Of a stretch of DNA of 64,000 nt, positions 33,725 through 48,649 are shown in pieces. This stretch comes from an uncultured Gammaproteobacteria bacterium. Lineage in GTDB: Bacteria; Pseudomonadota; Gammaproteobacteria; JAADHQ01. Where the stretch lies: positions 1-64,000 of the forward strand of contig CAMYJD010000022.1 of assembly GCA_947258655.1 (NCBI GenBank), given 5' to 3'. The notes under the pieces were generated by a model that was not told the origin of the DNA, searched no databases, and was given only the letters and a program-made list of their open reading frames with translations. Numbering within the stretch: position 1 is the first letter of the stretch; every line of letters begins with the position of its first letter. The position numbers and the translations under genes are program-made.

Positions 33725-34261
33725 TCATGGACAGGTAGTCTCCTGCACACGCGCTCTGCCAGTAGCGTTGATGCACAGGTAGCGGGTATATCCATCGGGA
33801 AGGCTAAGTGTAAAACTGGATTTAGATGCGATCAGTCCGTCTGATGTATACTGAACATCATTCCCACCTGCGGTCTGGGTCAGTGTAGGCGTTCCGCTCA
33901 GCCCTTCCCATACGCGGAGAATCACATCGGTGCCGTCCTTTAGACCGGCTGTGCCGGTATCATCTGTGAACACAATCCAGCCATCTTTCCAGTCGGTACT
34001 GGCTACGCAACTGGTCTGGTTAGTGCTGGGGCATACGCTGATGTTGATGCCTCGCTTGACGGCCTCACTGCGGGCCAGGGTCATCGCGGTCAGTAATTCG
34101 TTGGACTGCGAAGCGGCACGATTATTCTGAATAATAGTGCGGAAACCCGGTACCGCGATGGTAACCAGGATCGCGGCAACGGCCAGCGTGACCATTAATT
34201 CGATCAGCGTAAAACCGCGTGTTCGTTTCATATCGGTGTTCATTTTTTTACCTGTATGCAT
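33725..34261 (-). CDS. FimT/FimU (GspH family) minor pilin
   Basis: MKRTRGFTLIELMVTLAVAAILVTIAVPGFRTIIQNNRAASQSNELLTAMTLARSEAVKRG. Confidence 0.9.
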   Translation of the reverse strand: MHTGKKMNTDMKRTRGFTLIELMVTLAVAAILVTIAVPGFRTIIQNNRAASQSNELLTAMTLARSEAVKRGINISVCPSTNQTSCVASTDWKDGWIVFTDDTGTAGLKDGTDVILRVWEGLSGTPTLTQTAGGNDVQYTSDGLIASKSSFTLSLPDGYTRYLCINATGRARVQETTCP

Positions 34262-34515
34262 GGTTTAATAATACGGCAAATTGTCACAATTCTGTACGTG
34301 ATGGTGTTGGCAGATTGTGTAAGAATGCAATTATTATTGTTATAAAACATATAGTTATACTTATCTCTAGTTGACAAGTGGTTAAGTCATCCGGATAAGC
34401 GGTAGTCCATAATAGTGCATAATCATACTCAGTTGATATAACAGTCACCAATATTGCTGTAAATACCGTCGTAATGCCTGAATCAGCAGCGGTTTTTTCT
34501 GTATAATTACGGCCC

Positions 34516-35451
34516 ATGGAACTTATATTAGCCAATCCCCGTGGTTTTTGTGCCGGCGTAGACCGTGCTATTGAAATTGTCGAGCGTGCGCTGGATGTCT
34601 TTGGTGCACCGATCTATGTGCGTCATGAGGTCGTGCACAATACCTTTGTCGTCAATGACCTGAAACACAAGGGCGCGGTGTTTGTCGATGAGCTCGACGA
34701 GGTGCCGGATGATGCGACCGTGATCTTCAGCGCTCATGGCGTCTCCAGTGCCGTGCAGCACGAGGCCGAGCAACGCTCATTGAAGGTATTTGATGCGACC
34801 TGTCCGCTGGTGACCAAGGTCCATCTGGAGGTGGCGCGGCATGCCGACCAGGGTAGCGAGGTGATCCTGATCGGGCATGCAGGTCACCCCGAGGTGGAGG
34901 GGACGATGGGGCGCTATCAGAATACAGCGCCCGCTGCCGGGATCTACCTGGTCGAAAGCGAGGCGGATGTCGCTGCCCTCGTTGTCAATGACCCGGACAA
35001 CCTCTGTTTCGTGACCCAGACGACGCTGTCGATGGATGACACCCAGACTATTATCCACGCACTCCGCCAGCGCTTCCCGCGGATCCAGGGGCCGAAGAAG
35101 GATGATATCTGCTATGCAACACAGAATCGCCAGGATGCAGTCAAGGACCTGGCGCGCAAAAGCGATGTCGTACTGGTAGTGGGATCGGTCAGCAGTTCTA
35201 ATTCGAACCGCCTGCGCGAGATTGCCGAGAAAATGTCAGTGCCTGCGTATCTGATCGATGGTGCTGACGATATCAGGTCCGAGTGGTTTGACGGCAAGCA
35301 GATAATAGGTCTTACCGCCGGTGCGTCGGCACCGGAGATCCTTGTCTACCAGGTACGCCAGCACCTGGCCGGACTCGGGGTGAGCTGTGTTAATGAGAAT
35401 GAAGGTAAAGTGGAGAACATTACCTTCAATCTGCCGAAGGAGTTGAAATAA
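34516..35451 (+). CDS. ispH: 4-hydroxy-3-methylbut-2-enyl diphosphate reductase
   Basis: [50 protein letters not shown]. Confidence 0.97.
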
Positions 35452-35571
35452 ACCCGTTATCAAGGCCCCGTTGTTCCGTCCGGTTTATTTCAAAGCACTA
35501 TTCATGCTATTTTTTTCCATTCTTTGCTCCGGACTCGAACTGGTTTCTGATGGCAGCCGCAGGCCGGCGAT

Positions 35572-36681
35572 TTGCTGAGAGGTAGTATATTGTACGATTG
35601 TGTTGTAGTTGGTGGTGGTCTGATTGGCATGTTGAGTGCACGTCAGTTAAAACTCGAAGGCAGGTCGGTCCTGTTACTCGATCAGGGTCGCCTCGGTGCT
35701 GAATCGTCGTGGGCCGGTGGCGGTATCCTGACGCCGCTGTATCCGTGGCGTTACCCAGAAGCAGTATCACACCTGGCGGCCTATAGTGCGCGCCATTACC
35801 ACTCCCTGGCACAAGAGTTGCTGGAGGAGTCCGGCATCGACCCGGAATGGACCGAGAGCGGATTGTTGATCCTGGACGCTGATGAAAAGGTCCAGGCGCA
35901 GGCCTGGGCGCAACAATTCGGTCAAGATCTGCGCATTCTCGAAAAGCTCACGGCGATAAAGTCACTGGAACCCGAACTGGCAACGCAGGCCAATGAGGCA
36001 TTGTGGCTACCAGCAGTGGCGCAGCTACGCAATCCGCGCCTGGTCAGGTCACTGCAGGGCAGTCTGCAATACCATCAAATAGATTACGCCGAACACGAAG
36101 CGGTCTGTGAAATAGAACGGGCGCAGGGCAGGGTCGTCGCCGTGAACACGGCCAAACGGCGGATACCGACAGACACAGTCATTGTCACGGCCGGTGCCTG
36201 GAGTGCCGGGCTGCTCGAACAGGCCGGTATTGCCGTTAAGGTCGAACCGGTGCGAGGGCAGATGCTGGTCTACAAGGCTATACCGGGTCTGCTCAAACAT
36301 ATGGTCCTCGACCACGGTCATTACCTGATCCCGCGTCGCGATGGTCGCATATTGATCGGCAGTACGCTGGAGTATGTCGGTTTTGACAAATCGACGACCG
36401 TACAGGCACGCGCGGAACTAAACGCGCGTGCATTGGCACTGTTGCCGGCGTTAAGCGATTATGCAATCGAGAGGCACTGGTCCGGTCTGCGTCCCGGCAG
36501 CCCCAGCGGGGTGCCGTATATCGGCGACCATCCCGGCCTGCACGGGCTTTATTTTAACTGTGGCCATTTTCGCAATGGGGTCATACTCGGTCTCGCATCG
36601 GTGCAGTTGCTGCTGGATATGATGCTGGGGCGCACACCGGTCATGGATCCTGCGCCATATGCGCTAAATGTGGCGCACTGA
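35572..36681 (+). CDS. thiO: Glycine oxidase ThiO-like FAD oxidoreductase
   Basis: YDCVVVGGGLIGMLSARQL; GRLGAESSWAGGGIL; HWSGLRPGSPSGVPYIG; TTG start likely. Confidence 0.85.
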   Translation: MLRGSILYDCVVVGGGLIGMLSARQLKLEGRSVLLLDQGRLGAESSWAGGGILTPLYPWRYPEAVSHLAAYSARHYHSLAQELLEESGIDPEWTESGLLILDADEKVQAQAWAQQFGQDLRILEKLTAIKSLEPELATQANEALWLPAVAQLRNPRLVRSLQGSLQYHQIDYAEHEAVCEIERAQGRVVAVNTAKRRIPTDTVIVTAGAWSAGLLEQAGIAVKVEPVRGQMLVYKAIPGLLKHMVLDHGHYLIPRRDGRILIGSTLEYVGFDKSTTVQARAELNARALALLPALSDYAIERHWSGLRPGSPSGVPYIGDHPGLHGLYFNCGHFRNGVILGLASVQLLLDMMLGRTPVMDPAPYALNVAH

Positions 36682-36779
36682 CCTGCCATCGATGACAGGG
36701 TAGAGCGCCGATTCGGCCGCTGCTCTGTCCCGCCGGAATACCTGTAGCTCTATTACCATATAAAAAAAGATGCATATAG

Positions 36780-36794
36780 TTAGACTTTGTCTAA
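36780..36794. promoter_or_regulatory. Palindrome TTAGAC-TTT-GTCTAA, candidate Fur/PerR-family operator
   Basis: Perfect 6-bp arms, 24 bp upstream of the ATG of the Fur-family gene. Confidence 0.5.
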
Positions 36795-36817
36795 TAAATA
36801 GGCATATACTAACGCTT

Positions 36818-37246
36818 ATGGAAGACGAAATTCGACAATGGCCGTTAGACAGGCCTGCCGTGATCAAGCTGCTCGGGGATTACGGTATCCAGCCGACGCA
36901 GCAGCGTATCGATATTGCGCAGATCCTATTTGCGTGCCCGCAGCACCTGTCGGCCGACCAGATATTGAAGACTGTGAACGAGTCGCCACCGTCCGTGTCC
37001 AAGGCCACGGTCTATAATACGCTGGGCCTGTTTGCAGACAAGGGTCTGGTGCGTCAGGTGATTGTCGATCCCAGTCGTGTCTTCTATGATTCTAATACCT
37101 CGCAACACCATCACCTGTATGATATCGATCATGGCACATTGACCGATATTCCCGCCGATCAGTTAACGGTCAATGGGGCGCCGCAATTACCCGACGGCAT
37201 GATCACCGAAGGCATCGATGTCATTATTCGAGTCCGCAGCGAATAA
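36818..37246 (+). CDS. Fur-family transcriptional regulator (PerR/Irr-like)
   Basis: GIQPTQQRIDIAQILF...HLSADQILKTV...VSKATVYNTLGLFADKGLVRQV...HHHLYDID; no C-terminal CxxC. Confidence 0.88.
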   Translation: MEDEIRQWPLDRPAVIKLLGDYGIQPTQQRIDIAQILFACPQHLSADQILKTVNESPPSVSKATVYNTLGLFADKGLVRQVIVDPSRVFYDSNTSQHHHLYDIDHGTLTDIPADQLTVNGAPQLPDGMITEGIDVIIRVRSE

Positions 37247-37298
37247 TCCATTTCTCATACCGGTCGCCTGTTATCTATAGTTCATCGCGAGGATAATA

Positions 37299-37422
37299 GG
37301 CCATTCATTTGAAGAATATATAAGCGGTCTAAAAGGCCATTCATTTGAAGAATATATAAGCGGTCTAAAAGGCCATTATAAGCGGTCTAAAAGGCCATTC
37401 ATTTGAAGAATATATAAGCGGC
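37299..37422. repeat. Tandem array of 36-bp unit GGCCATTCATTTGAAGAATATATAAGCGGTCTAAAA (about 4 copies, one 14 bp shorter)
   Basis: Unit starts at 37299, 37335, 37371 (shortened) and 37393. Confidence 0.9.
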
Positions 37423-37489
37423 CACGGGAGCGACTGCGGCGATACGTTCGAAGTCTTCAAGATGTATATGTCGAGAGTATCTTTTGAAA

Positions 37490-37660
37490 GATTGCTTCAT
37501 GTTCGTTCGCAATGACAAGAGTAGATTAATTACATTGTCATCGCGAGCCACGGCGTTTGTGGCGCGGCGATCTGCACGGGTTTATGTCTGGCATCATCCC
37601 TGGTCGGGATGCATTGTTCGAGAGATTGCTTCATTCCATATACGCAATGACATCGGACTC
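37490..37660. repeat. Dispersed repeat GATTGCTTC...CGCAATGACA / TTGTCATCGCGAGC
   Basis: Inverted and direct copies of the motif also present at 91-180. Confidence 0.6.
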
Positions 37661-37676
37661 TGTATCCAGTAAAGAT

Positions 37677-38585
37677 TCAGATCTTATCGATACCGGTTTC
37701 GGAATCTGTCAGTGTCTGGAATGCATCCGGGTGCTGCAGGTTGAATTCACGCGCATGCTGGAGAACGTCAGGGTCGAAGCCGGCGCGACGGATGGACTCG
37801 AGCAGTTCAATGAATGCGGGCTGTTTTTTGATATCGGAGGCACTGGCTACCTGGGGCAGATGGTGGTCGGCGACAATCTTGGCGCCACGCTGTTGTTCGT
37901 CGTGACCGCGCTCATCACTGTAGAAACGTGACAGCACAAATATGCGAGTACCCAGGTAGGCGGCCTCTTCGAGATCGTGGGTAACAAAGAATATGGTCAT
38001 TTTTTCCTGTTCCCACAACTCCAGCAGAAACAACTGCATGTCCTCGCGGGTCTGCGGATCGAGCGCACCGAAAGGCTCATCCATCAACAGGATGCGTGGA
38101 CGCATGATCAATGCCTGGGCTATGGCGGCACGTTGCTGCATACCGCCGGACAGTTCATGCGGATACTTGCCGGCATGCTCCTCGAGCCTGACCCGGGACA
38201 GGTAATGCAGTGCCTGTTGTTCGAACTGCTTGCGTTGGCGGCGGCGCTGCCACCAGTTGTGGCGCAGATTAAAACCCAGCAGGGTATTGTCCAGCACCGT
38301 CAGATTCGGGAACAGCGAGTAACGCTGATAGACAATGCCGCGGCGGGTGTCCGGAAAGTCGGCAGGCTTGCCGTCGATATGGATATGACCCCGGTCCTGG
38401 GCCTCCTGCCCGAGGATAATGCGTAGCAGTGTGGATTTGCCACAGCCACTGGGTCCGACCACGGTACAGAGTTCGCCGCTGGTCACGGACAGATCGATAT
38501 TGTCGAGAATGAGCTTGTTACCGTAGGACTTGTACAGGTCCTCGATATGCAGCAGGTAGTCGTTGGCGCGTTTGGGTGTTTGCAT
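37677..38585 (-). CDS. ABC transporter ATP-binding protein (nitrate/sulfonate/taurine type)
   Basis: GPSGCGKSTLLR Walker A; LSGGMQQRAAIAQAL signature; ILLMDEPFGALD Walker B; ~60-aa C-terminal extension. Confidence 0.92.
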   Translation of the reverse strand: MQTPKRANDYLLHIEDLYKSYGNKLILDNIDLSVTSGELCTVVGPSGCGKSTLLRIILGQEAQDRGHIHIDGKPADFPDTRRGIVYQRYSLFPNLTVLDNTLLGFNLRHNWWQRRRQRKQFEQQALHYLSRVRLEEHAGKYPHELSGGMQQRAAIAQALIMRPRILLMDEPFGALDPQTREDMQLFLLELWEQEKMTIFFVTHDLEEAAYLGTRIFVLSRFYSDERGHDEQQRGAKIVADHHLPQVASASDIKKQPAFIELLESIRRAGFDPDVLQHAREFNLQHPDAFQTLTDSETGIDKI

Positions 38586-38589
38586 CGAT

Positions 38590-39414
38590 TCAGGCCTGGT
38601 ACCAGCGGAACAGGCGGTTATTCAACTGGCGTAGCAACCAGTCGAAACAAAAGCCCAACAACGTGATCCATAATACATAGGGCAGGATAATATCCATGGC
38701 CAGGTAGCGCCGGACCAGAAAAATCCGGTAGCCGAGGCCGTCGGCTGCAGCGATCGCCTCGGCCGCAATCAGGAACAACCAGGCCGCACCGAGACTAAGA
38801 CGAACGGAGTTGATCAGGCGCGGCATGATCTGCGGCAGGATCACCCGATAGACGACATCGAGCTGGCTGGCACCGAGTGTAATGGCCTTCGTGACCTGTT
38901 CCTGAGGTAGTGATTTGACCGCCAGATAGGTATCGCGTGCGATCAGTGGGAATACACCGATAAAGATCAATGTGATTTTGGCGGCCTCGTCAATGCCGAC
39001 GACAATAAACAGAATCGGTAAAATCGCCAGCGGCGGAATCATCGAGAAAAAGGTAAGAAAGGAATAAAAAACGGCATTGAAGCCCGGGAACAGTCCCAGG
39101 TTCAGACCCAGTAACAGGCCGGCAATGGCGGCGAGAATAATACCACTGAACAGGCGCTTCAGGCTGGCCGCGGTATCACTCCAGAGCATGTATTCACCGG
39201 TGCGTTTGTTTGCGCTAAAGGCCAGTTTGTGCACCGATTGGCTTAGTGCGGTCGGTGTCGGCAGTAGTTTGTCACGCGGGTTTTCAGCGTGACGTATATG
39301 TGCCGCGGTGACATAGATCACGGCCACGAGAATAAACGGCACAGCCGCCAGCAGCCATTTCAGATACTTGCCGGGACGGGCATGCAGGCCCAGCAATAAC
39401 GGAGGCTTTCTCAT
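38590..39414 (-). CDS. ABC transporter permease (SsuC/TauC-like)
   Basis: EQVTKAITLGASQLDVVYRVILPQIMPRLINSVRLSLGAAWLFLIAAE (EAA motif). Confidence 0.92.
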   Translation of the reverse strand: MRKPPLLLGLHARPGKYLKWLLAAVPFILVAVIYVTAAHIRHAENPRDKLLPTPTALSQSVHKLAFSANKRTGEYMLWSDTAASLKRLFSGIILAAIAGLLLGLNLGLFPGFNAVFYSFLTFFSMIPPLAILPILFIVVGIDEAAKITLIFIGVFPLIARDTYLAVKSLPQEQVTKAITLGASQLDVVYRVILPQIMPRLINSVRLSLGAAWLFLIAAEAIAAADGLGYRIFLVRRYLAMDIILPYVLWITLLGFCFDWLLRQLNNRLFRWYQA

Positions 39415-39426
39415 CGCTGAACGCGC

Positions 39427-40647
39427 TCAGGATTGCTCATCGCTGAAGTCAAACGGACTGCTCATTTCATTGCCCTTTTCCAGGTCCTGCACGACACTCT
39501 CCTGTTCTTTAGAGATATCATCCAGTTCAATAATCGTTTGCGCCATCTTCGGCAGGGCCTGCTGGCGGAAGCTGGCTATGTCGTCCAGCGCCGCGCGGAT
39601 ATCGACGAAGGCCTGTTTCAGCACCGTCATGTCCAGTTGTGTCGACGAGGCCTGTTTATGGATCTCGGCGCCCTGGGTTTTTAGACGTTCGGCAGTGCCC
39701 GAAATCAGCTTGTTGGTTGCATCATTGACCGAGTTGATCTTGTCGAGGACGATTTTCTGGTCAGCCAGTGCAATTGCCAGCGTCGCACCGACCTTCAGCG
39801 CACTCATTGTCACATTCAGGGTGCGGTTGACACCACGTATCAGCTCCTTGTTGTTACGAATGATCAGTTCGATGGCGATGATGCCCTGTTGATTGACGAC
39901 CAGTTGCTGTTGCAGATCCATGATGCGCTGGCGCAACGGGAACAGGATCTCTTCCTGTAGGAATTTCATTTTTGCATCGTCGCTGCTGATTTCGCGTTCC
40001 ATACGCGTCGCCAGTTTTTGATCGATCAGTTGCGCCAGTTGTATGGTTTGCTCGAGCCTGTGGGTCAACTCGCGCATGCGTTTCTGGTCATCGGCCAGGG
40101 TCGTGTTGTCCCGTTCCAGCTGACCCTTGCCCTGTTTCAGTGAGTTGGATATGGCTTCGATAATGGTGCTGGTTTTTTCAAACTGCGAGAAGTAACGTTT
40201 GATCGGCGTGCCGACAAAAGGCAGGCGACCGAGCAGGCGGCTGAACCAGCCGGGTTCGAAGTCAAAATTGGCCGGATCCGTTTCCTCGACATGCATCTTC
40301 AGGTCTACCAGTGCATTGGCGACACTGCCACCATCTTCGGAACGTTTGGCCAGTTTGCCAATCGGTGCATTCAGCATCGTGTTGAGTTTGGCGGAATCGA
40401 CCTGAACCTTCAGGCCGAGGTGCTCGATGGCGCTTTTACTGGTTGCGGACTTGTCGAGGTCACTGGCATCCAGGGCAAACAATTGCTCGGTGACAGAATC
40501 GGCGCGTTCCATAATCGCATGATCAACGGTTTGTTCATTGACGCTAATTTCACCACTCAGGTCAAGGTCTTTCCTGATCGTGTCGACATCGACCTTATGC
40601 AGGGGTTCCGATTCTTGTGCCTCAGTGTCAGCATGTTGCATTGCCAT
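39427..40647 (-). CDS. TelA family (toxic anion resistance) protein
   Basis: Coiled-coil protein with LPFVGTPIKRYFSQFEKTSTIIEAISNSLKQGKGQLERDN and PLRQRIMDLQQQLVVNQQGIIAIELIIRNNKELIRGVNR, characteristic of TelA. Confidence 0.88.
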   Translation of the reverse strand: MAMQHADTEAQESEPLHKVDVDTIRKDLDLSGEISVNEQTVDHAIMERADSVTEQLFALDASDLDKSATSKSAIEHLGLKVQVDSAKLNTMLNAPIGKLAKRSEDGGSVANALVDLKMHVEETDPANFDFEPGWFSRLLGRLPFVGTPIKRYFSQFEKTSTIIEAISNSLKQGKGQLERDNTTLADDQKRMRELTHRLEQTIQLAQLIDQKLATRMEREISSDDAKMKFLQEEILFPLRQRIMDLQQQLVVNQQGIIAIELIIRNNKELIRGVNRTLNVTMSALKVGATLAIALADQKIVLDKINSVNDATNKLISGTAERLKTQGAEIHKQASSTQLDMTVLKQAFVDIRAALDDIASFRQQALPKMAQTIIELDDISKEQESVVQDLEKGNEMSSPFDFSDEQS

Positions 40648-40669
40648 AATGTGTCTCCTGTGCTGTGTT

Positions 40670-41482
40670 CTAGTATTTGCGCGCGCGTGATGCCAGGTGT
40701 TGTAATTCGTTGATGGCGCTTTCCAGATTTATAGTGGCCTGTTGCTCGACACCCTCTGCCTGTGATAGTGCATGCATGGTCAGGTCCATTTGTGTCATGG
40801 CTTCCTCATTATCGATCAGCAATGATTTTATCTTACTGTTTTGATCATTGTACAGGTCCAGACGCGATTGCAGCGTGGAAATCTCACGTTGCGCCTCGGA
40901 ATTTGTGCGCTGCGCCTGCAGTGTGTCCAGGCGTTTGCGGATAAAGTCGATATCGATGGCCTGATTGCTTTTCAGTAAATGGGCCATTTTCTGCAGGTTA
41001 TCTATGGTGCCGAGAAAGACCTGCTCGAGGACGCCATTAAAGCGCGCGTGGATCAGCTCGCCACTATTAAACTTGTGGTCGACAAGATGATGAAAGGTCT
41101 GGTATTTTTCCTCCAGTCTTTGCAGTTGGCGATAGGCGTCGCTGGCACCGAGTTTTTGCAGTGATTCCCTGACCGCGCTGATTTTCGCTTTCTGCTGGCG
41201 GCTGATATCTTCGAGCAGGCGATTAACATACTGGTTCGACAGATAGTCGTTACGTAACCAGTACTGGTTAATCCACGACAGCCCGGCGATGCCGGCACCA
41301 CCGATCAACATTCCCAGCAACAGCATTGAACCGCCCAACAGGCCGACACCCAGTAGACCGATGATGCCGAGTGCCGCTGGATAGACCACGCTGGGATGCT
41401 CAACGGACGAGCGCAGCACGGCTTTTTTGACCGCCGGGCGTGAGAAGTCATAGCGTTTTTTTTCTTTTTGTTCGAATTCCAT
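40670..41482 (-). CDS. XpaC-like membrane/coiled-coil protein
   Basis: TM hairpin (VYPAALGIIGLLGVGLLGGSMLLLGMLIGGAGIAGLSW) followed by a long coiled coil; adjacent to telA. Confidence 0.55.
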   Translation of the reverse strand: MEFEQKEKKRYDFSRPAVKKAVLRSSVEHPSVVYPAALGIIGLLGVGLLGGSMLLLGMLIGGAGIAGLSWINQYWLRNDYLSNQYVNRLLEDISRQQKAKISAVRESLQKLGASDAYRQLQRLEEKYQTFHHLVDHKFNSGELIHARFNGVLEQVFLGTIDNLQKMAHLLKSNQAIDIDFIRKRLDTLQAQRTNSEAQREISTLQSRLDLYNDQNSKIKSLLIDNEEAMTQMDLTMHALSQAEGVEQQATINLESAINELQHLASRARKY

Positions 41483-41519
41483 GCCTATAGGATACCTGTC
41501 ACATTCACATGCTGTATAC

Positions 41520-43082
41520 CTAGATGTTCTCGGTGACCAGGTAGAGTTCGACGCGCGGCAAGCGGTACTGGTAGGCGCGCAGGCTTTCGCCCTGTTTACG
41601 TGCTAACGGTTGGCGGGCGCCATAACCGATAAAATGCAGGCGGTTCGGGTCGATGGCATGCGCATCCTGCAGGTAAGCAGCAACCGCGGCTGCGCGTTGG
41701 CGTGACAGACCAAGATTGGCAGCTGTATCACCGCGGGTGCCGGTATGGCCCTTTACGATGACGCGATAATTGGGGTAGTGCTTGAGTTGTCTGACCGCAT
41801 TATCCAGCTGGCTGTGGCCTTCATCGGTCAGTTCGCTACTGCCGCTCATGAATATGATCGGGCGTATCTTTAATGTGCCCACTTCGCGCAAGCGACTCCA
41901 TTGCCCGGCATCTAGGGGCGCGAATTGCTTTGGCTTGTTGCTGGATTTTGGTTGTGTACGGTTGGCGGAAAAATTTGTGTTTTCGACGCTCTGCTGGTAA
42001 AGGCGTGCAACGAAGGTGTTGTTGGTTAGGCGATAGGGATCGTCATTGGGTAATATATTTTTTCTGACCGCAGCGGTTTGGGTGAGGATATCGAGTGTGG
42101 ATTCGATCGATGCAATCAGCTCATCCCTGTTGGTGGAAAGGTTGCCGGCAACGCCAAACCAGTCAATAGCATTGTCGTTCAGGCTCATCCACGCAACCCC
42201 TTTGAGCATGGTCCTGATTTTCGTAGGTGCCAGGTCGATATCTGCGGCAGCATCACTGATCAGTCTGTCAGGATTATCGCGGTAGAACTTCAGGCTGCGG
42301 AAATACTGGCGCAGCAGGATTTCGCTAATGTCCGCGTGTGTGACCGAGTATTGGCGGTTGACCAGTAATATATCGACTATTAGTTTGTTGGTGTCCTCGG
42401 TGCCGATGAGTTTTATGATGTCCTTGTTTTCCAGGGCGCGGGTAACATCCGGCTCCCACAACACGGCGGCATCCGCCTTGCCCTGCAGCAGTGCCTGTAA
42501 GGCCTGTTGCGAACCGTTACTGCTAATGCGCCAGTCCTTGTCATCCAATAGCGATTGTATGTCGAAGTGCACGGCGATACTGCGTAACAGGTGCTCACTT
42601 GGCGAATCCGGTGTCAATGCGATGTTGAATTTTTCTACCTGTTTGATTGCATCGAGACTGGAAAGCCTGTCCTTCCATGCGACGATCGCATCACCGCCCT
42701 TCGACTCATCGATAACTGAGATGACAGTGGCGGGAAAATCATGTGTATAGCCATTCAGTAAAAAGGAATCAATCGTGGCCACAGCAAAATCCAGTGAGCC
42801 CTTTTTCAGTTTTTGCATACGTCCGTCATAATCGGCCTGGTCATCGATACATTGCAGGATATAGCCGCTATGGCGCATGCGTTTCTTCAGGTCTTTCGAG
42901 CATAGCGGGTAGTAGCCAATCCAGTTGTCCACACCAATACGGATCGTGGCCTTGATATTTCTCGAGTCGGAACTGTTCTTTTGTGCAGAATCCATCAATG
43001 CAGGTGCGTACAGTCGGTAGGCCAGTATGGTGGCGAAACCCAGTATGATCAGCACGATGGCGATTTTACTGTGTTTTTTCAT
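41520..43082 (-). CDS. SsuA/NMT1-like substrate-binding protein fused to OmpA C-terminal domain
   Basis: TM anchor MKKHSKIAIVLIILGFATILAY; SBP part IRIGVDNWIGYYPL...GKADAAVLWEPDV; C-terminal YRVIVKGHTGTRGDTAANLGLSRQRAAAVAAYL...RLHFIGYGARQP. Confidence 0.85.
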   Translation of the reverse strand: MKKHSKIAIVLIILGFATILAYRLYAPALMDSAQKNSSDSRNIKATIRIGVDNWIGYYPLCSKDLKKRMRHSGYILQCIDDQADYDGRMQKLKKGSLDFAVATIDSFLLNGYTHDFPATVISVIDESKGGDAIVAWKDRLSSLDAIKQVEKFNIALTPDSPSEHLLRSIAVHFDIQSLLDDKDWRISSNGSQQALQALLQGKADAAVLWEPDVTRALENKDIIKLIGTEDTNKLIVDILLVNRQYSVTHADISEILLRQYFRSLKFYRDNPDRLISDAAADIDLAPTKIRTMLKGVAWMSLNDNAIDWFGVAGNLSTNRDELIASIESTLDILTQTAAVRKNILPNDDPYRLTNNTFVARLYQQSVENTNFSANRTQPKSSNKPKQFAPLDAGQWSRLREVGTLKIRPIIFMSGSSELTDEGHSQLDNAVRQLKHYPNYRVIVKGHTGTRGDTAANLGLSRQRAAAVAAYLQDAHAIDPNRLHFIGYGARQPLARKQGESLRAYQYRLPRVELYLVTENI

Positions 43083-43152
43083 GGCGTCCGGCCTATTGTC
43101 TGCGCGTGTTGTAACAATTTTGTGTTCATAAATACATCTATGCCGGGCCGGG

Positions 43153-43953
43153 CTAGAATTCCTGTGCGGTAAAATCGGGGGACTCGGCCAGTACATCATC
43201 AAGGCCCCGCTGTAATGATTGCACGTCGGTGGCCGACTGATAGAGGATCTTGCCGGGCTGGTTCAGCGAGTGTTTGTCGCTGATACAAAAACCGATGGTG
43301 TGAATGATGATGGGTGTTTCGGCCAGCATCTTGTCGACGATACGGCGCGGTTTTTCATCGGGATCGGCAAAACCGTCGGTGACAATGACGAGATGATATT
43401 CGCCATAGCCTAGCTGACTGCGGGCCTGGCGGGTGATGCTGTCGAAAGCCTTCGTGATCGATGTCAGTAAGGGTGTGCTGCGATTGGCATAGACACGATT
43501 GACCTGTTCGGTGAACTGTTCACGGTTGCGGATTGCCAGAGGCGTGCGTTCACTGATGCCGTTATTGTCAAACGTGAGCATTCCCAGGTTGGCGTTGGGC
43601 GGGACATTGGCGGAAAAAGCAATCAGGGCTTTTTTGGCCGCAGTGATCTTGTTCATGTTACCCGAACAGCCCTTTTCCGACATGCTGCCGGAGCCGTCGA
43701 AGACCACATAGTAGTTCTTGCGCAGCAGATCATCGGATAATGCGGTTTGCTTGTGTTTATCGCCGAGATAGGGCCAGGGTGAGACTGTCTGTTTCGACTG
43801 CTCAGGCGCTGGTGGTGTTACCGTATCCGTCGTTGCTGGCCGATTGGCAGGCGCGGGAGTTGGCGGCGGCGAAAACAGGTTGAAAAACTCGGGAATATAG
43901 GTGTATGCAAGCAGTATCACAATGACCCATGGCAATAGTTTTTTCAGTTTCAT
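43153..43953 (-). CDS. Membrane-anchored VWA-domain protein
   Basis: N-terminal TM; MIDAS-like YYVVFDGSGSMSEKGC; VTDGFADPDEKPR. Confidence 0.88.
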   Translation of the reverse strand: MKLKKLLPWVIVILLAYTYIPEFFNLFSPPPTPAPANRPATTDTVTPPAPEQSKQTVSPWPYLGDKHKQTALSDDLLRKNYYVVFDGSGSMSEKGCSGNMNKITAAKKALIAFSANVPPNANLGMLTFDNNGISERTPLAIRNREQFTEQVNRVYANRSTPLLTSITKAFDSITRQARSQLGYGEYHLVIVTDGFADPDEKPRRIVDKMLAETPIIIHTIGFCISDKHSLNQPGKILYQSATDVQSLQRGLDDVLAESPDFTAQEF

Positions 43954-43970
43954 CAGATTCCTTCCCTGGA

Positions 43971-45686
43971 CTAGAGTGGCTGGAAGACGTCGGATTCCGC
44001 TTCCAGCTGGATGATCCGGAACTTGACGCGCATGTTGTCACGCCATTGTTTTTCATTTTTCGGGGCGCAGGGATCGTTACCGCATATACCGCTCTTGGGA
44101 TTGTCGATGCCGTGTCCGACAATCGCGAATTGTGACGGGTCCAAGCTTATGTTTCTGCTACGGGCAAAGTCAATAATGCTGTTACGCACCGCAGTCGCGC
44201 GGGTCAGGCTCAGGTTCCTGGCCGATTGCTGGATGCGGCGCAAAATGATATTACTGGATCCGGCCTTTTTCTTTTTCAGATAACCGAGAGGATCGCTATG
44301 CCCCTCTACCGTTATCACGGCGCCACCATAAGTGGAAGCCAGTTCGATGACACTTTCAAAAGACTGGCTGTACAGGTCAGCAGAAAAAACTTTCTGGTTG
44401 GGCTTGAAAAACACTTCAAAAGCAAAGATCTCGCCTTCCTCCAATGTGCCCTGTTGCTGTTTCCTGGCAATCGTGCTGGCCAGTTTGCGTTCGTCAAAGC
44501 GGGTACGGGTATCGGCGTCAGTCGTCAGCCCGGTGCTGATCTGGCCATAATTCCAGTTGGCATGGTTGAATTTGGCAACGGCCTTTATCAGCCCCAGGCT
44601 GTTGAATGCAGCAGAGGTCTCGGCGACGCGCTTGGTGAAGCGTCGGGGATTATTGCTGTCAGTAAAGAAACGCTTGTTATCGGCAACGTTCATATGCATC
44701 GCATCATGATAGAGGGCCTCGGCATCACTACTGGCCTGTTCACTGTCGAGCAGTGCCCCGGCGGCGCTGCGCATGAAACTACTATACTCGGCACGGCGCT
44801 TGTTTCGTTGCCGGACCAGTTCATCGACCTCCTGTTGAGCCAGCATCAGTCCGCGCACAAAAGCGCTGACATCCTTGCGATGGGACTTGAAGTAATCGGA
44901 GCGCACGGCATAAACATCGGCAATGATACGATTGGCGGTTTTTGTCGACATCAGGATGCGCGCGCCGGCAACCGAGTCTTCCGCGCCGGTACCCATGGTT
45001 CCGCCCGAGGTCAGTGCCAGTGCATCCGGTGTAATGACCATTGCCGCATCGACATCCTTTTCATAAAACGCGGACATCGGCGTGTTATCGGTGCCGGTCA
45101 AATCTGGCAGCCAGCGTATGCTGACATCCCTTGGCGACAGGCCGGCGTCACTGAGGACCTTGGTTAGATAATCGACATGTGGACCATAGGCCTGTAACGC
45201 AATGACCTTGCCCTTGAGATCGGCAGGCTTGCGGATGCCCTTTTTGACGACCATCGCATCACCGCCTGCAGATTCGCTGAGCTGGTAGATCAGCACGGGT
45301 TTTATACGCGGGTCCTTGCCAAGCAAATCCGCTGCCATCGTCAGCATGCCCAGTGTGCCGCGCAAATAAGGGCTTTTACCGCTGATGTAATTTTGTAATT
45401 GACTGGTAAAACTGTCTTCCCGGACCAGGCGCAAACTCAATCCCAGTCCGGCGAAAATGCTGTCCTTGCGGGTGCGGGTACTATTACCATTCGCATACAG
45501 CGTGCGTGCATCTGCACCCCAGGTGATCATTGGTACCTGTGTGGTACCGCTGCGAACCTGTCCTACCGGTGTATGCACGGTGGTTTGCAGTGGTTTTGAA
45601 TCGATATACTGTGGTTTGGCCAGTAGCGGGCTTGTCATCACAATCAGCATGGTGCTGATTAATAATTTTACATACGCTGAATCCAT
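43971..45686 (-). CDS. Exported NMT1-like substrate-binding protein fused to OmpA C-terminal domain
   Basis: Signal peptide; GGDAMVVKKGIRKPADLKGKVIALQAYGPHVDYL; C-terminal GGAVITVEGHSDP...LSLTRATAVRNSIIDFA...QFAIVGHGIDNP. Confidence 0.85.
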   Translation of the reverse strand: MDSAYVKLLISTMLIVMTSPLLAKPQYIDSKPLQTTVHTPVGQVRSGTTQVPMITWGADARTLYANGNSTRTRKDSIFAGLGLSLRLVREDSFTSQLQNYISGKSPYLRGTLGMLTMAADLLGKDPRIKPVLIYQLSESAGGDAMVVKKGIRKPADLKGKVIALQAYGPHVDYLTKVLSDAGLSPRDVSIRWLPDLTGTDNTPMSAFYEKDVDAAMVITPDALALTSGGTMGTGAEDSVAGARILMSTKTANRIIADVYAVRSDYFKSHRKDVSAFVRGLMLAQQEVDELVRQRNKRRAEYSSFMRSAAGALLDSEQASSDAEALYHDAMHMNVADNKRFFTDSNNPRRFTKRVAETSAAFNSLGLIKAVAKFNHANWNYGQISTGLTTDADTRTRFDERKLASTIARKQQQGTLEEGEIFAFEVFFKPNQKVFSADLYSQSFESVIELASTYGGAVITVEGHSDPLGYLKKKKAGSSNIILRRIQQSARNLSLTRATAVRNSIIDFARSRNISLDPSQFAIVGHGIDNPKSGICGNDPCAPKNEKQWRDNMRVKFRIIQLEAESDVFQPL

Positions 45687-46075
45687 TTCCGTCTCCATCG
45701 TGACTGCGATTATTGATTTCCATCCACGGCTCAATATCATATCAGATCTGTGTTTACCCGTCTTGGCCTTAAGTGGTTGTTAATTCGATAAAATACAGAG
45801 GATGCAGCACTGTGTCCAGGCATATATTGATATTGTCATGTACCATTAGGCAGGTATGTTGTCGGCTATATAAGTATTCATATCAAAGGCTTGTATATCA
45901 GCGTCTATGCAGATAGCGTAGTGAGATTGTAAACAAATGTTTAATTTAGTTGAGGATTATTTACTATAGAGTATGCTAATATAGGTATAGTGGAAGAATA
46001 ATGATGTATGAGGTTGTTAACTTCGTATTTTTACATTTACGGGTGCTGCAGGGAAAGTAACATCATGAATCCTGG

Positions 46076-48649
46076 TTGCTATGTGCTATGCAGTTCACAA
46101 AACCTGCCAAATTGCCCCGTCTTACCGCGAGGTACAAATATCTAGCAACGATAGCCGTTGTCGTTGTCGTGCTGATTGTCGCAATGTCCACCTGGTATGT
46201 CGCCAGCATCAAGCAGAGTAGTGCCGCCAGTCTGCAGCATCTTGCTACTATCAAACAGCTGAACGCACTGATTAGACATAGCGTCGTCGATAGCCAGTTA
46301 AAACTGAACAAACTGTTATTATCCAGCTCCATCGATAATGATCGAGCGCCTGTAGAAGCCCTCGATCAGGCCATTATGCACAGTCACGCGTTGCAACAAC
46401 TGTCTGCGGCAGGCAAGGGCGACTTTGAGCAGGATCTGGCATCCCTGACGGCGCAACTGAATTCCTACCGCCAGTTGCTGGTTGATCTGTTGCAGCACAG
46501 GAAAGACCTGAACTGGTTATACCCGGCCTTGCCTTTTATCAATGGATCAATGCTGGAGGCCAACCAGCGTTTTGAAACTGCCAATTTACTCGCCATCAAT
46601 GAGCTCAAGGAGGAATCGGACAATCCGTATTCGCTCAAGGCATTCCAGTATTTTTATGAAACGAATGACTTGTGGCGCCGTGTCATTCTCAATTTTCGCG
46701 CGATGCTGATACGTTTCAGTGGACTCCAGAACGTCCCCCTGGGTGCCAGTGCCGAGGAACAGAATATCCTGCTGTTGTTGGGAGAACTGGCTGTGAGGAT
46801 GGAGGCCATCGCGGAACTGGAAAAAGCGGGCAGTCTCAGCTTTCAGGGTGAGGAGGCAGTAGCCGAGATGCGCGCAGCCAGTAAGGCGTGGGAGCAGGGT
46901 TTTGAGCAACTGCGGCAAATGCGTCTGTCTATATACTGGCGCGCGGATATCGAATATCTGAATACCCGAATTAAGCCGGTGCAGGAGACAATTCTGGCAA
47001 AGTTGGGAAGCCTTGAGGCGCTGGCCGATAACCTGTCACATCAGGAACTGGCAGTAGTCGACAAGGTGCTTGACCGCTTGATAGTACAGTTCTGGATTCT
47101 CGCTGTCTTCATTATCCTGGGCGTGGTGACGGGCTACGCCTATATGCAGAAGCTGATTCTGCGCCCCGTAGCGCGTGTCGCCGAGGCCTTGTGGGCCGAG
47201 TCACATGGTACGACACCGACCAAGTTGTCAACGGCCAAAACCATGGAAATGAAACAGTTGATTGAGTCGTTTTCGGCGATGCGCAAGCAGGTCGCTGAGC
47301 GTCAACAGGCGCTCGAATATCAGGCCCTGCATGATTCGTTGACGGCCTTGCCTAACCGTGTGCTATTGAATGATCGTCTTGAACAGCAGATTAACCTGGC
47401 CGCGCGCGCGGACAGCACACTGGCATTGCTGATTATGGACCTGAACGGTTTCAAGGAGATCAATGATACGCTCGGTCACCAGATCGGCGACAGGGTGCTG
47501 GTTGCGGTTGCGGAGCGCATCCATGAGCAGTTGCGCCTTGCAGATACGGTCGCCAGGATGGGTGGGGACGAGTTCGCGGTGTTGCTGACAGACGTCAACA
47601 AGGACGAGGCCGTCGTGCTGATCGAGCGCATTGTCAAGTCGCTTGAGCATCACCTCGAGATTGGAGGACACAAGTTGCATATCAGCGCCAGTATTGGTGT
47701 CACGATGTATCCGGATCATGGGCATAATGCCAAGATTCTAGTGCAACGTGCCGATGTTGCGATGTACATGGCGAAGCGTTCGCATATACCGTATACATTT
47801 TATGACCGCGAGCAGGATACGCATAATATCGGTTGGCTGACGCTGCCTGCCGAACTGGAAGTGGCCTTGAAGAAGGATCAGTTGCAGCTCTATTATCAAC
47901 CCAAGGTGGAAGCCGTCAGCGGAGCACTAAAAGGCGTTGAGGCATTATTACGCTGGCAACATCCCCGTCACGGCTGGGTCAATCCGGAAGATATCGTTGA
48001 GCTGGCCGAATCGAGCGCGCTGATCGCCGAATTGACAAACTGGGTCATTGACCGTGCCCTCACTGACAGTGTGCGCTGGCGCAATGACGGATTGCAGGTC
48101 AGTATGGCGATCAACCTGTCGCCGCAAAATTTGCATGATCCGACTTTTGTCGATCAGGTCAGCGAGGCGCTGACTCAGCATGGCGTGAATGGCGATGTGC
48201 TGACCCTGGAGATTACCGAGAATGCCTTTATCAGTGATCCGGCGCAGGCCGTAACAAGCATTCATCAGTTGCGTGCCATGGGTATCAGGATTGCGATAGA
48301 CGACTACGGTACCGGATTTTCATCCTTGTCATACCTGCGTCAGTTGGCCGTCAATGAATTGAAAATCGACAAGGTTTTTGTCATGAACCTGGACCAGAAT
48401 GAAGATGACCTGACCATTGTACGTTCGACGATTCATATGGCACAAAGCCTCGGCCTGGAAGTGGTCGCCGAGGGTGTGGAGAAGGTTATGTCGCTACAAT
48501 TACTGCGTGAACTGGAATGCGACTATCTGCAGGGCTATCTGATCAGTGAGCCACTTTCCGATGCTGAATTCCGCGCATGGCTGGATAAATGGGGCGGTTA
48601 TAACACGATGGATGCGGGAATAAAGGATTCGGGAAATCGCGCCAGTTAA
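46076..48649 (+). CDS. GGDEF-EAL bifunctional c-di-GMP protein with periplasmic sensor and HAMP-like linker
   Basis: Two TMs; RMGGDEFAVLL; GVEALLRWQHPRHG; IDDYGTGFSSLSYLR. Confidence 0.95.
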   Translation: MLCAMQFTKPAKLPRLTARYKYLATIAVVVVVLIVAMSTWYVASIKQSSAASLQHLATIKQLNALIRHSVVDSQLKLNKLLLSSSIDNDRAPVEALDQAIMHSHALQQLSAAGKGDFEQDLASLTAQLNSYRQLLVDLLQHRKDLNWLYPALPFINGSMLEANQRFETANLLAINELKEESDNPYSLKAFQYFYETNDLWRRVILNFRAMLIRFSGLQNVPLGASAEEQNILLLLGELAVRMEAIAELEKAGSLSFQGEEAVAEMRAASKAWEQGFEQLRQMRLSIYWRADIEYLNTRIKPVQETILAKLGSLEALADNLSHQELAVVDKVLDRLIVQFWILAVFIILGVVTGYAYMQKLILRPVARVAEALWAESHGTTPTKLSTAKTMEMKQLIESFSAMRKQVAERQQALEYQALHDSLTALPNRVLLNDRLEQQINLAARADSTLALLIMDLNGFKEINDTLGHQIGDRVLVAVAERIHEQLRLADTVARMGGDEFAVLLTDVNKDEAVVLIERIVKSLEHHLEIGGHKLHISASIGVTMYPDHGHNAKILVQRADVAMYMAKRSHIPYTFYDREQDTHNIGWLTLPAELEVALKKDQLQLYYQPKVEAVSGALKGVEALLRWQHPRHGWVNPEDIVELAESSALIAELTNWVIDRALTDSVRWRNDGLQVSMAINLSPQNLHDPTFVDQVSEALTQHGVNGDVLTLEITENAFISDPAQAVTSIHQLRAMGIRIAIDDYGTGFSSLSYLRQLAVNELKIDKVFVMNLDQNEDDLTIVRSTIHMAQSLGLEVVAEGVEKVMSLQLLRELECDYLQGYLISEPLSDAEFRAWLDKWGGYNTMDAGIKDSGNRAS

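Follow-up and report, generated by a model that had tools for sequence, protein, structure and literature searches.

The first 64,000 nucleotides of contig CAMYJD010000022.1 from an uncultured gammaproteobacterium (the window) contain one tight operon of seven co-directional genes on the minus strand (45740-37677), in which two non-identical fusions of a substrate-binding protein (SBP) with an OmpA-like domain are encoded together with a VWA domain protein, a coiled-coil protein, TelA and the permease and ATPase of an ATP-binding cassette (ABC) transporter. SBPs of Gram-negative ABC importers are normally free in the periplasm; what is unusual here is an SBP fused to a putative wall-binding domain, in an operon with TelA. 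The new part is the operon, assembled from known kinds of components, as the fusion itself is already named in RefSeq and numbered in PHROG. Gene content and order recur in other Pseudomonadota, on Vibrio plasmids and in huge phages, which indicates that the genes work together. We tentatively infer, at somewhat less than even confidence, that the operon encodes one envelope-spanning sensing/transport complex that would protect the cell envelope, and not an ordinary nutrient importer.

Two SBP-OmpA fusions in one operon

The genes follow one another in the order SBP-OmpA fusion A (43971-45686), VWA protein (43153-43953), SBP-OmpA fusion B (41520-43082), membrane-hairpin plus coiled-coil protein (40670-41482), TelA (39427-40647), ABC permease (38590-39414) and ABC ATPase (37677-38585), with intergenic gaps of 17, 70, 37, 22, 12 and 4 nt from A to the ATPase. 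A first-pass annotation of the window had placed the two fusions in one operon, and this held: the seven genes share one direction, are 4-70 nt apart and include a permease and an ATPase for the SBPs to serve. Chance or misread open reading frames (ORFs) were ruled out because the seven genes are kept in order across distant replicons. No catabolic or metabolic gene is among the seven, and promoter and terminator scans of the locus gave results near chance.

The ATG of fusion A at 45686 opens a predicted cleavable signal peptide (..SPLLA/KP), and the longer start at 45740 was judged unlikely. The SBP part of A matches the NMT1 domain PF09084 above the Pfam cut-off (E=1e-7), whereas its OmpA domain, which is divergent and carries an insertion, scores below the cut-off for PF00691 (E=7e-4, 20.3 vs 27.2 bits). 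When the A-family profile was compared with the PDB, it matched TauA (6ssy, 2.3e-8) and Acinetobacter baumannii OmpA (3td3, E=1.3e-6). The AlphaFold2 model of A (pLDDT 75) was matched by Foldseek to Escherichia coli TauA (E=7e-14, TM 0.81 of target), and it has OmpA-like strands and helices in the C-terminal domain. An OmpA fold was assigned to A from the 3td3 match and the model, despite the Pfam score.

In fusion B the pattern of Pfam scores is reversed: the OmpA domain is above the cut-off (E=3e-20), whereas the SBP domain is weak (NMT1_2, 6e-4, under the cut-off) and is better recognized by the SsuA_fam model (2e-11). The B-family profile matched many OmpA domains in the PDB, as well as SsuA (4.7e-5), and the AlphaFold2 model of B, of modest quality (pLDDT 68), was matched by Foldseek to TauA (E=2e-13, TM 0.73-0.78). 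Thus, sequence profiles, AlphaFold models and fold matches in the PDB confirm the modules that the first-pass annotation had read in both proteins. Of the checks that it had proposed, the domain search recovered only the SBP part of A and only the OmpA part of B above the Pfam cut-offs, while structure prediction gave a TauA fold match for both SBP domains (E ~1e-13). B starts with a hydrophobic helix, which spans residues 3-35 in the model and has a Kyte-Doolittle hydropathy of 2.21 at residue 7. It has no cleavage motif, so that the expected arrangement of an uncleaved transmembrane (TM) anchor in one fusion and a signal peptide in the other was recovered, with B anchored and A cleavable. 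An origin of A and B by simple gene duplication was considered and was not shown; the two have diverged strongly and belong to separate orthologous lines.

Wall-binding motif and membrane anchor

The pair of residues that binds diaminopimelic acid in OmpA domains is Asp271/Arg286 in AbOmpA (PMC12108004). Fusion A keeps this peptidoglycan-binding pair (GHSD...LSLTRA), whereas in fusion B the Asp position is occupied by Gly (GHTG, not GHTD) and the Arg is kept. The pair was tabulated over all recovered homologues of A, of B and of a single-fusion form found in phages (described below). Asp was present in 16/16 homologues of A and Arg in 15/16; among the homologues of B, Arg was present in 13/13 and Asp in only 1/13, the window being one of the 12 that have lost it. 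The single fusion combined a TM anchor with both Asp and Arg in 7/7 cases. This split of motif and anchor between A and B is a conserved feature of chromosomal, plasmid and phage versions. These data support a model in which two-copy systems would share out the wall grip (A) and the membrane anchor (B), and one-copy systems would combine both.

The proposal of the first-pass annotation that the SBP would be held at the wall can therefore be kept for A, where the motif is retained, but not for B, which is better read as an inner-membrane-anchored protein whose wall binding, if any, would be altered. Its suggestion that the two copies could act at the inner membrane and at the wall is likewise supported by the split in anchoring and in the Asp/Arg motif, as far as sequence can indicate. 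In phage contig L039 (12658-13227), a fusion B lacks the SBP domain and only the anchor and OmpA domain are left.

Other proteins of the operon

The VWA protein (PF00092, 2e-8) has an intact metal ion-dependent adhesion site (MIDAS) motif (DGSGS..T..D), the residues of which are conserved in seven homologues. It has an N-terminal membrane anchor and is predicted to be periplasmic; its relatives in L036, Vibrio and L040 are lipoprotein-like. The protein encoded at 40670-41482 has a hydrophobic block from residue 38 and is homologous to the equivalent gene of huge phages (phmmer 3e-32 to L040; hhalign 97% to phage genes), while no Pfam family matched it at E<=0.1. Its identification as XpaC (PF10112) was not supported, as there was no Pfam match and hhalign found it unrelated to the gene that precedes TelA in common TelA loci. 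TelA, a cytoplasmic coiled-coil protein of the toxic anion resistance family, belongs to PF05816 (E=1.9e-70, 238 bits vs a cut-off of 30, model positions 11-327 of 332).

The permease is of the TauC/SsuC type (PF00528, 2.7e-22, 79.8 bits; TauC model, 4e-38). The ATPase is TauB-like with an extra C-terminal tail (PF00005, 1.3e-33, 116.9 bits), and all its nucleotide-binding motifs were read intact from the sequence (Walker A GPSGCGKST, signature LSGGMQQR, Walker B LLMDEP, H-loop). Both thus have the domains of a Tau/Ssu-type importer, but the scores fall short of membership in the Tau/Ssu equivalogs (TauC, 131 vs 342 bits; taurine SBP models, 30-37 vs 304-490 bits). Only 12 nt separate TelA from the permease in the window, where the relatives in L040, L043, L060, L100 and Vibrio have a standalone SBP; the two OmpA fusions are therefore the only SBPs of this variant.

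Insertion into the chromosome

The operon lies within a clean 8.8-kb insertion (37248-46056) between a FUR-family gene and a GGDEF-EAL gene. Congener G003 has the same flanking genes with 180 bp between them, and by blastn the window segments 33969-37247 and 46057-48601 are contiguous in its locus L061 (270-3495 and 3675-6219). The operon was absent from all three congeners searched. Its GC content (~0.52) is the same as that of the surroundings, with no foreign signature, and no integration repeats were common to the insertion edges. The operon was probably acquired laterally, and the empty site in the congener, the rarity of the operon and its carriage by plasmids and phages (see below) all suggest that it is mobile. 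At the fur-side edge of the insertion, the window has a small tandem repeat array (37294-37399) with 36- and 22-bp units that contains GGCCATTCATTTGAAGAATATATAAGCGG. In contig 36 of G003 (L057/L059), a glcF homologue is broken by an in-frame TGA.

Relatives in bacteria and plasmids

Fusion A was found in 2/369 genomes of the class and 2/399 genomes of the phylum, its own genome being counted in each, and a single-protein scan of the genome contigs gave one locus only. Full operons were present in two other Pseudomonadota (G222, locus L100; G382, locus L060), and partial ones in L036 and L101. Vibrio megaplasmids carry the operon with the ATPase gene first. Plasmid p380 of Vibrio coralliilyticus (L035) retains only a long VWA protein and an A that is 23% identical and has lost the wall-motif Arg; an integrase-bearing region adjoins them. 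The setting in G382 resembles a defence island, with RT-Toprim and caspase-fold genes on either side of the operon (L060 1868-3028 and 14404-16083): the RT-Toprim defence gene (PADLOC 1.9e-220) is the nearest gene on the A side of the operon, and the caspase-fold gene is located past the other end.

TelA (PF05816) scored above the cut-off in 23/229 genomes of the class. In most of the TelA loci mapped there, an SPFH-like gene adjoins TelA without ABC or SBP genes, and the ABC-linked TelA is therefore a distinct and rarer kind. A second TelA locus, of the common type, is present in the same genome as the window (contig 12; L104, 17455-18393) and consists of a 280-aa gene, TelA, an SPFH-like gene and a zinc-ribbon-like gene, with no ABC or SBP gene.

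Relatives in huge phages

The whole gene set is carried by the 595-kb phage LR756511, and scans of IMG/VR yielded 24 contigs of up to 545 kb with the fusion. By profile mapping, the full form (A, VWA, B, coiled coil, TelA or another coiled coil, SBP, permease and ATPase) was found in LR756511 and approximately 10 contigs, two of which are cut by contig ends and some of which form near-identical pairs. A short form, with two coiled-coil proteins, a single fusion, permease and ATPase, was found in nine contigs and in phage Lak-A1; no ATPase was seen in one of the short-form contigs. Another five contigs have the fusion with permease and/or ATPase, and each of the 15 Lak-type records matches A along its SBP part.

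The phage nature of these sequences was checked with two markers: capsid genes of the T4 type occur in LR756511, in Lak-A1 and on the L043 and L047 contigs, and terminase genes occur on the L040 and L047 contigs and approximately 6 kb from the Lak fusion. The L039 contig matched neither the capsid nor the terminase marker, and the phage status of the remaining contigs is that of the IMG/VR classification. Trees of A and of the permease placed the five other phage sequences in one clade and the 545-kb contig L040 among bacterial and plasmid sequences, which suggests transfer, in either direction, between bacteria and that phage line. Putative homing endonuclease ORFs, HNH-like or LAGLIDADG-like by eye, lie around and inside the operon of L040 (945-1721, 8757-9908 and 17276-18139).

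Most phage versions have a different coiled coil in the TelA slot. Its best PDB matches were Vipp1/PspA, at a weak E=0.0096, and it had no match to PF04012; other comparisons with PspA/Vipp1 gave 26-53% over ~65 columns. The coiled coil of the short form matched PF04012 in 3/10 members (best 3.7e-4), and its PDB matches were generic coiled coils. With so weak a PDB match and no PspA Pfam match for the TelA-slot protein, a PspA-like assignment was kept only as a weak likeness. In the 636-kb phage LR756504 (L062 11893-13017), a TelA gene without the ABC module is followed by a coiled-coil gene.

Comparison with known systems

TauABC and SsuABC are the closest transporters by the folds of the permease, ATPase and SBP domains; the operon differs from them by its sub-equivalog scores, its two copies of OmpA-fused SBPs and its VWA, TelA and coiled-coil proteins. 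With the TelA/Ter stress systems (XpaC-TelA, ter operons) it shares TelA and a neighbouring vWA protein. Here, however, the vWA protein is periplasmic and not TerF-like above the cut-off, and an ABC importer and SBP-OmpA fusions are present. With no TerB, TerC or TerD among the seven proteins, this is not a Ter system. When PADLOC was run on the seven proteins, it returned only generic ABC-ATPase and MotB-like partial matches and no defence family.

The direct orthologues of B on Vibrio plasmids are named 'phosphate ABC transporter substrate-binding/OmpA family protein' in RefSeq; the fusion architecture is therefore already known to annotation pipelines, although the nearest solved fold is TauA/SsuA and not a phosphate binder. 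In PHROG, phrog_25518 (no function annotated, and no link to a system) spans the phage SBP-OmpA architecture (P0001 80-560 to 81-511, E=8.5e-15). No publication on the fusion or the operon, in bacteria or in huge phages, was found among open-licence papers, and the main text of two Lak genome papers makes no mention of an ABC transporter or OmpA protein.

Proposed function

If the operon encodes an envelope-protecting complex, A would keep its SBP bound to the peptidoglycan and serve as a fixed sensor or a store of ligand, B would hold an SBP beside the permease, and the VWA protein, via its metal site, may bridge the periplasmic components. When a ligand binds or the envelope spacing changes, the signal would be relayed through the ATPase and permease to a TelA coiled-coil scaffold under the membrane. 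Overall, this would shield the envelope from a toxic compound or from an element entering the cell; during phage infection it would preserve the host cell or close it to competitors. Judged by the TauA/SsuA fold only, the probable ligand is a small anionic or zwitterionic molecule. Envelope protection is suggested by several lines of evidence. In Listeria, TelA is tied to tolerance of nisin and of tellurite (PMC12791056). Iyer et al. proposed that TelA and TerF-type vWA proteins in sub-membrane structures exclude phages and xenobiotics, and reported Ter genes in jumbo phages (PMC7824862). The mobile distribution and the one RT-Toprim neighbour point in the same direction.

Several observations weigh against envelope protection. 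To all appearances the ATPase and permease are fully functional, and an additional free SBP is present in most relatives, as expected of a true importer; the transporter core could simply import a small anion. In addition, TelA is swapped for the weakly PspA/Vipp1-like coiled coil in most phage versions, adjacency to defence genes was seen in one genome only, and the PADLOC result is also unfavourable. It is possible, though on balance unlikely, that the operon is a high-affinity taurine/sulfonate-type importer whose SBPs, tethered to the wall and to the inner membrane, would catch a scarce ligand and pass it on, with TelA, VWA and coiled coil as assembly or stability factors. The intact ABC motifs, the TauA-like SBP folds and the standalone SBP of most relatives are in its favour, as is the retention of permease and ATPase in every mapped version not cut by a contig end, apart from the short-form contig with permease only. 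For a plain importer, however, it would be odd to lack metabolic genes, to be strictly associated with TelA or a different membrane coiled coil, to have a rare and mobile distribution, and to have lost the SBP from fusion B in phage L039 and the free SBP in the window. The VWA, TelA and coiled-coil proteins, the insertion and the phage and plasmid relatives, which the first-pass annotation had not taken up, together argue against the locus as merely an unusual importer.

A system acting primarily against phages or in superinfection exclusion, and moving among phages, plasmids and chromosomes, would fit the carriage by huge phages, the RT-Toprim neighbour and the TelA/vWA precedent for phage exclusion (PMC7824862). 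We consider it improbable, since that defence neighbour is a single case, no PADLOC family matched and it is not obvious what part conserved ligand-type SBP folds would play in exclusion. The name of TelA, its Listeria phenotype and the anion-binding, TauA-like fold would also agree with a tellurite/oxyanion resistance operon in which the ABC part recognizes a toxic anion and TelA gives tolerance. This is very improbable: importing a toxic anion would be counterproductive unless for sensing only, TerB, TerC and TerD are missing from the seven proteins, and the effect of TelA on tellurite tolerance in Listeria is modest, 2-fold (PMC12791056).

The conserved split, with the wall motif kept in A, lost in B and joined with the anchor in the single fusion, gives sharp predictions for simple binding experiments. 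It is conceivable, though we hold it with low confidence, that huge phages, including Lak, carry a dedicated ABC complex with binding proteins tethered to the host wall, which would sense or clear a periplasmic signal and keep the infected envelope intact or closed to competitors, with relatives on chromosomes and Vibrio plasmids and passage between bacteria and at least one 545-kb phage. The presence of the operon in some of the largest phage genomes makes it a concrete, testable candidate for phage action on the host envelope.

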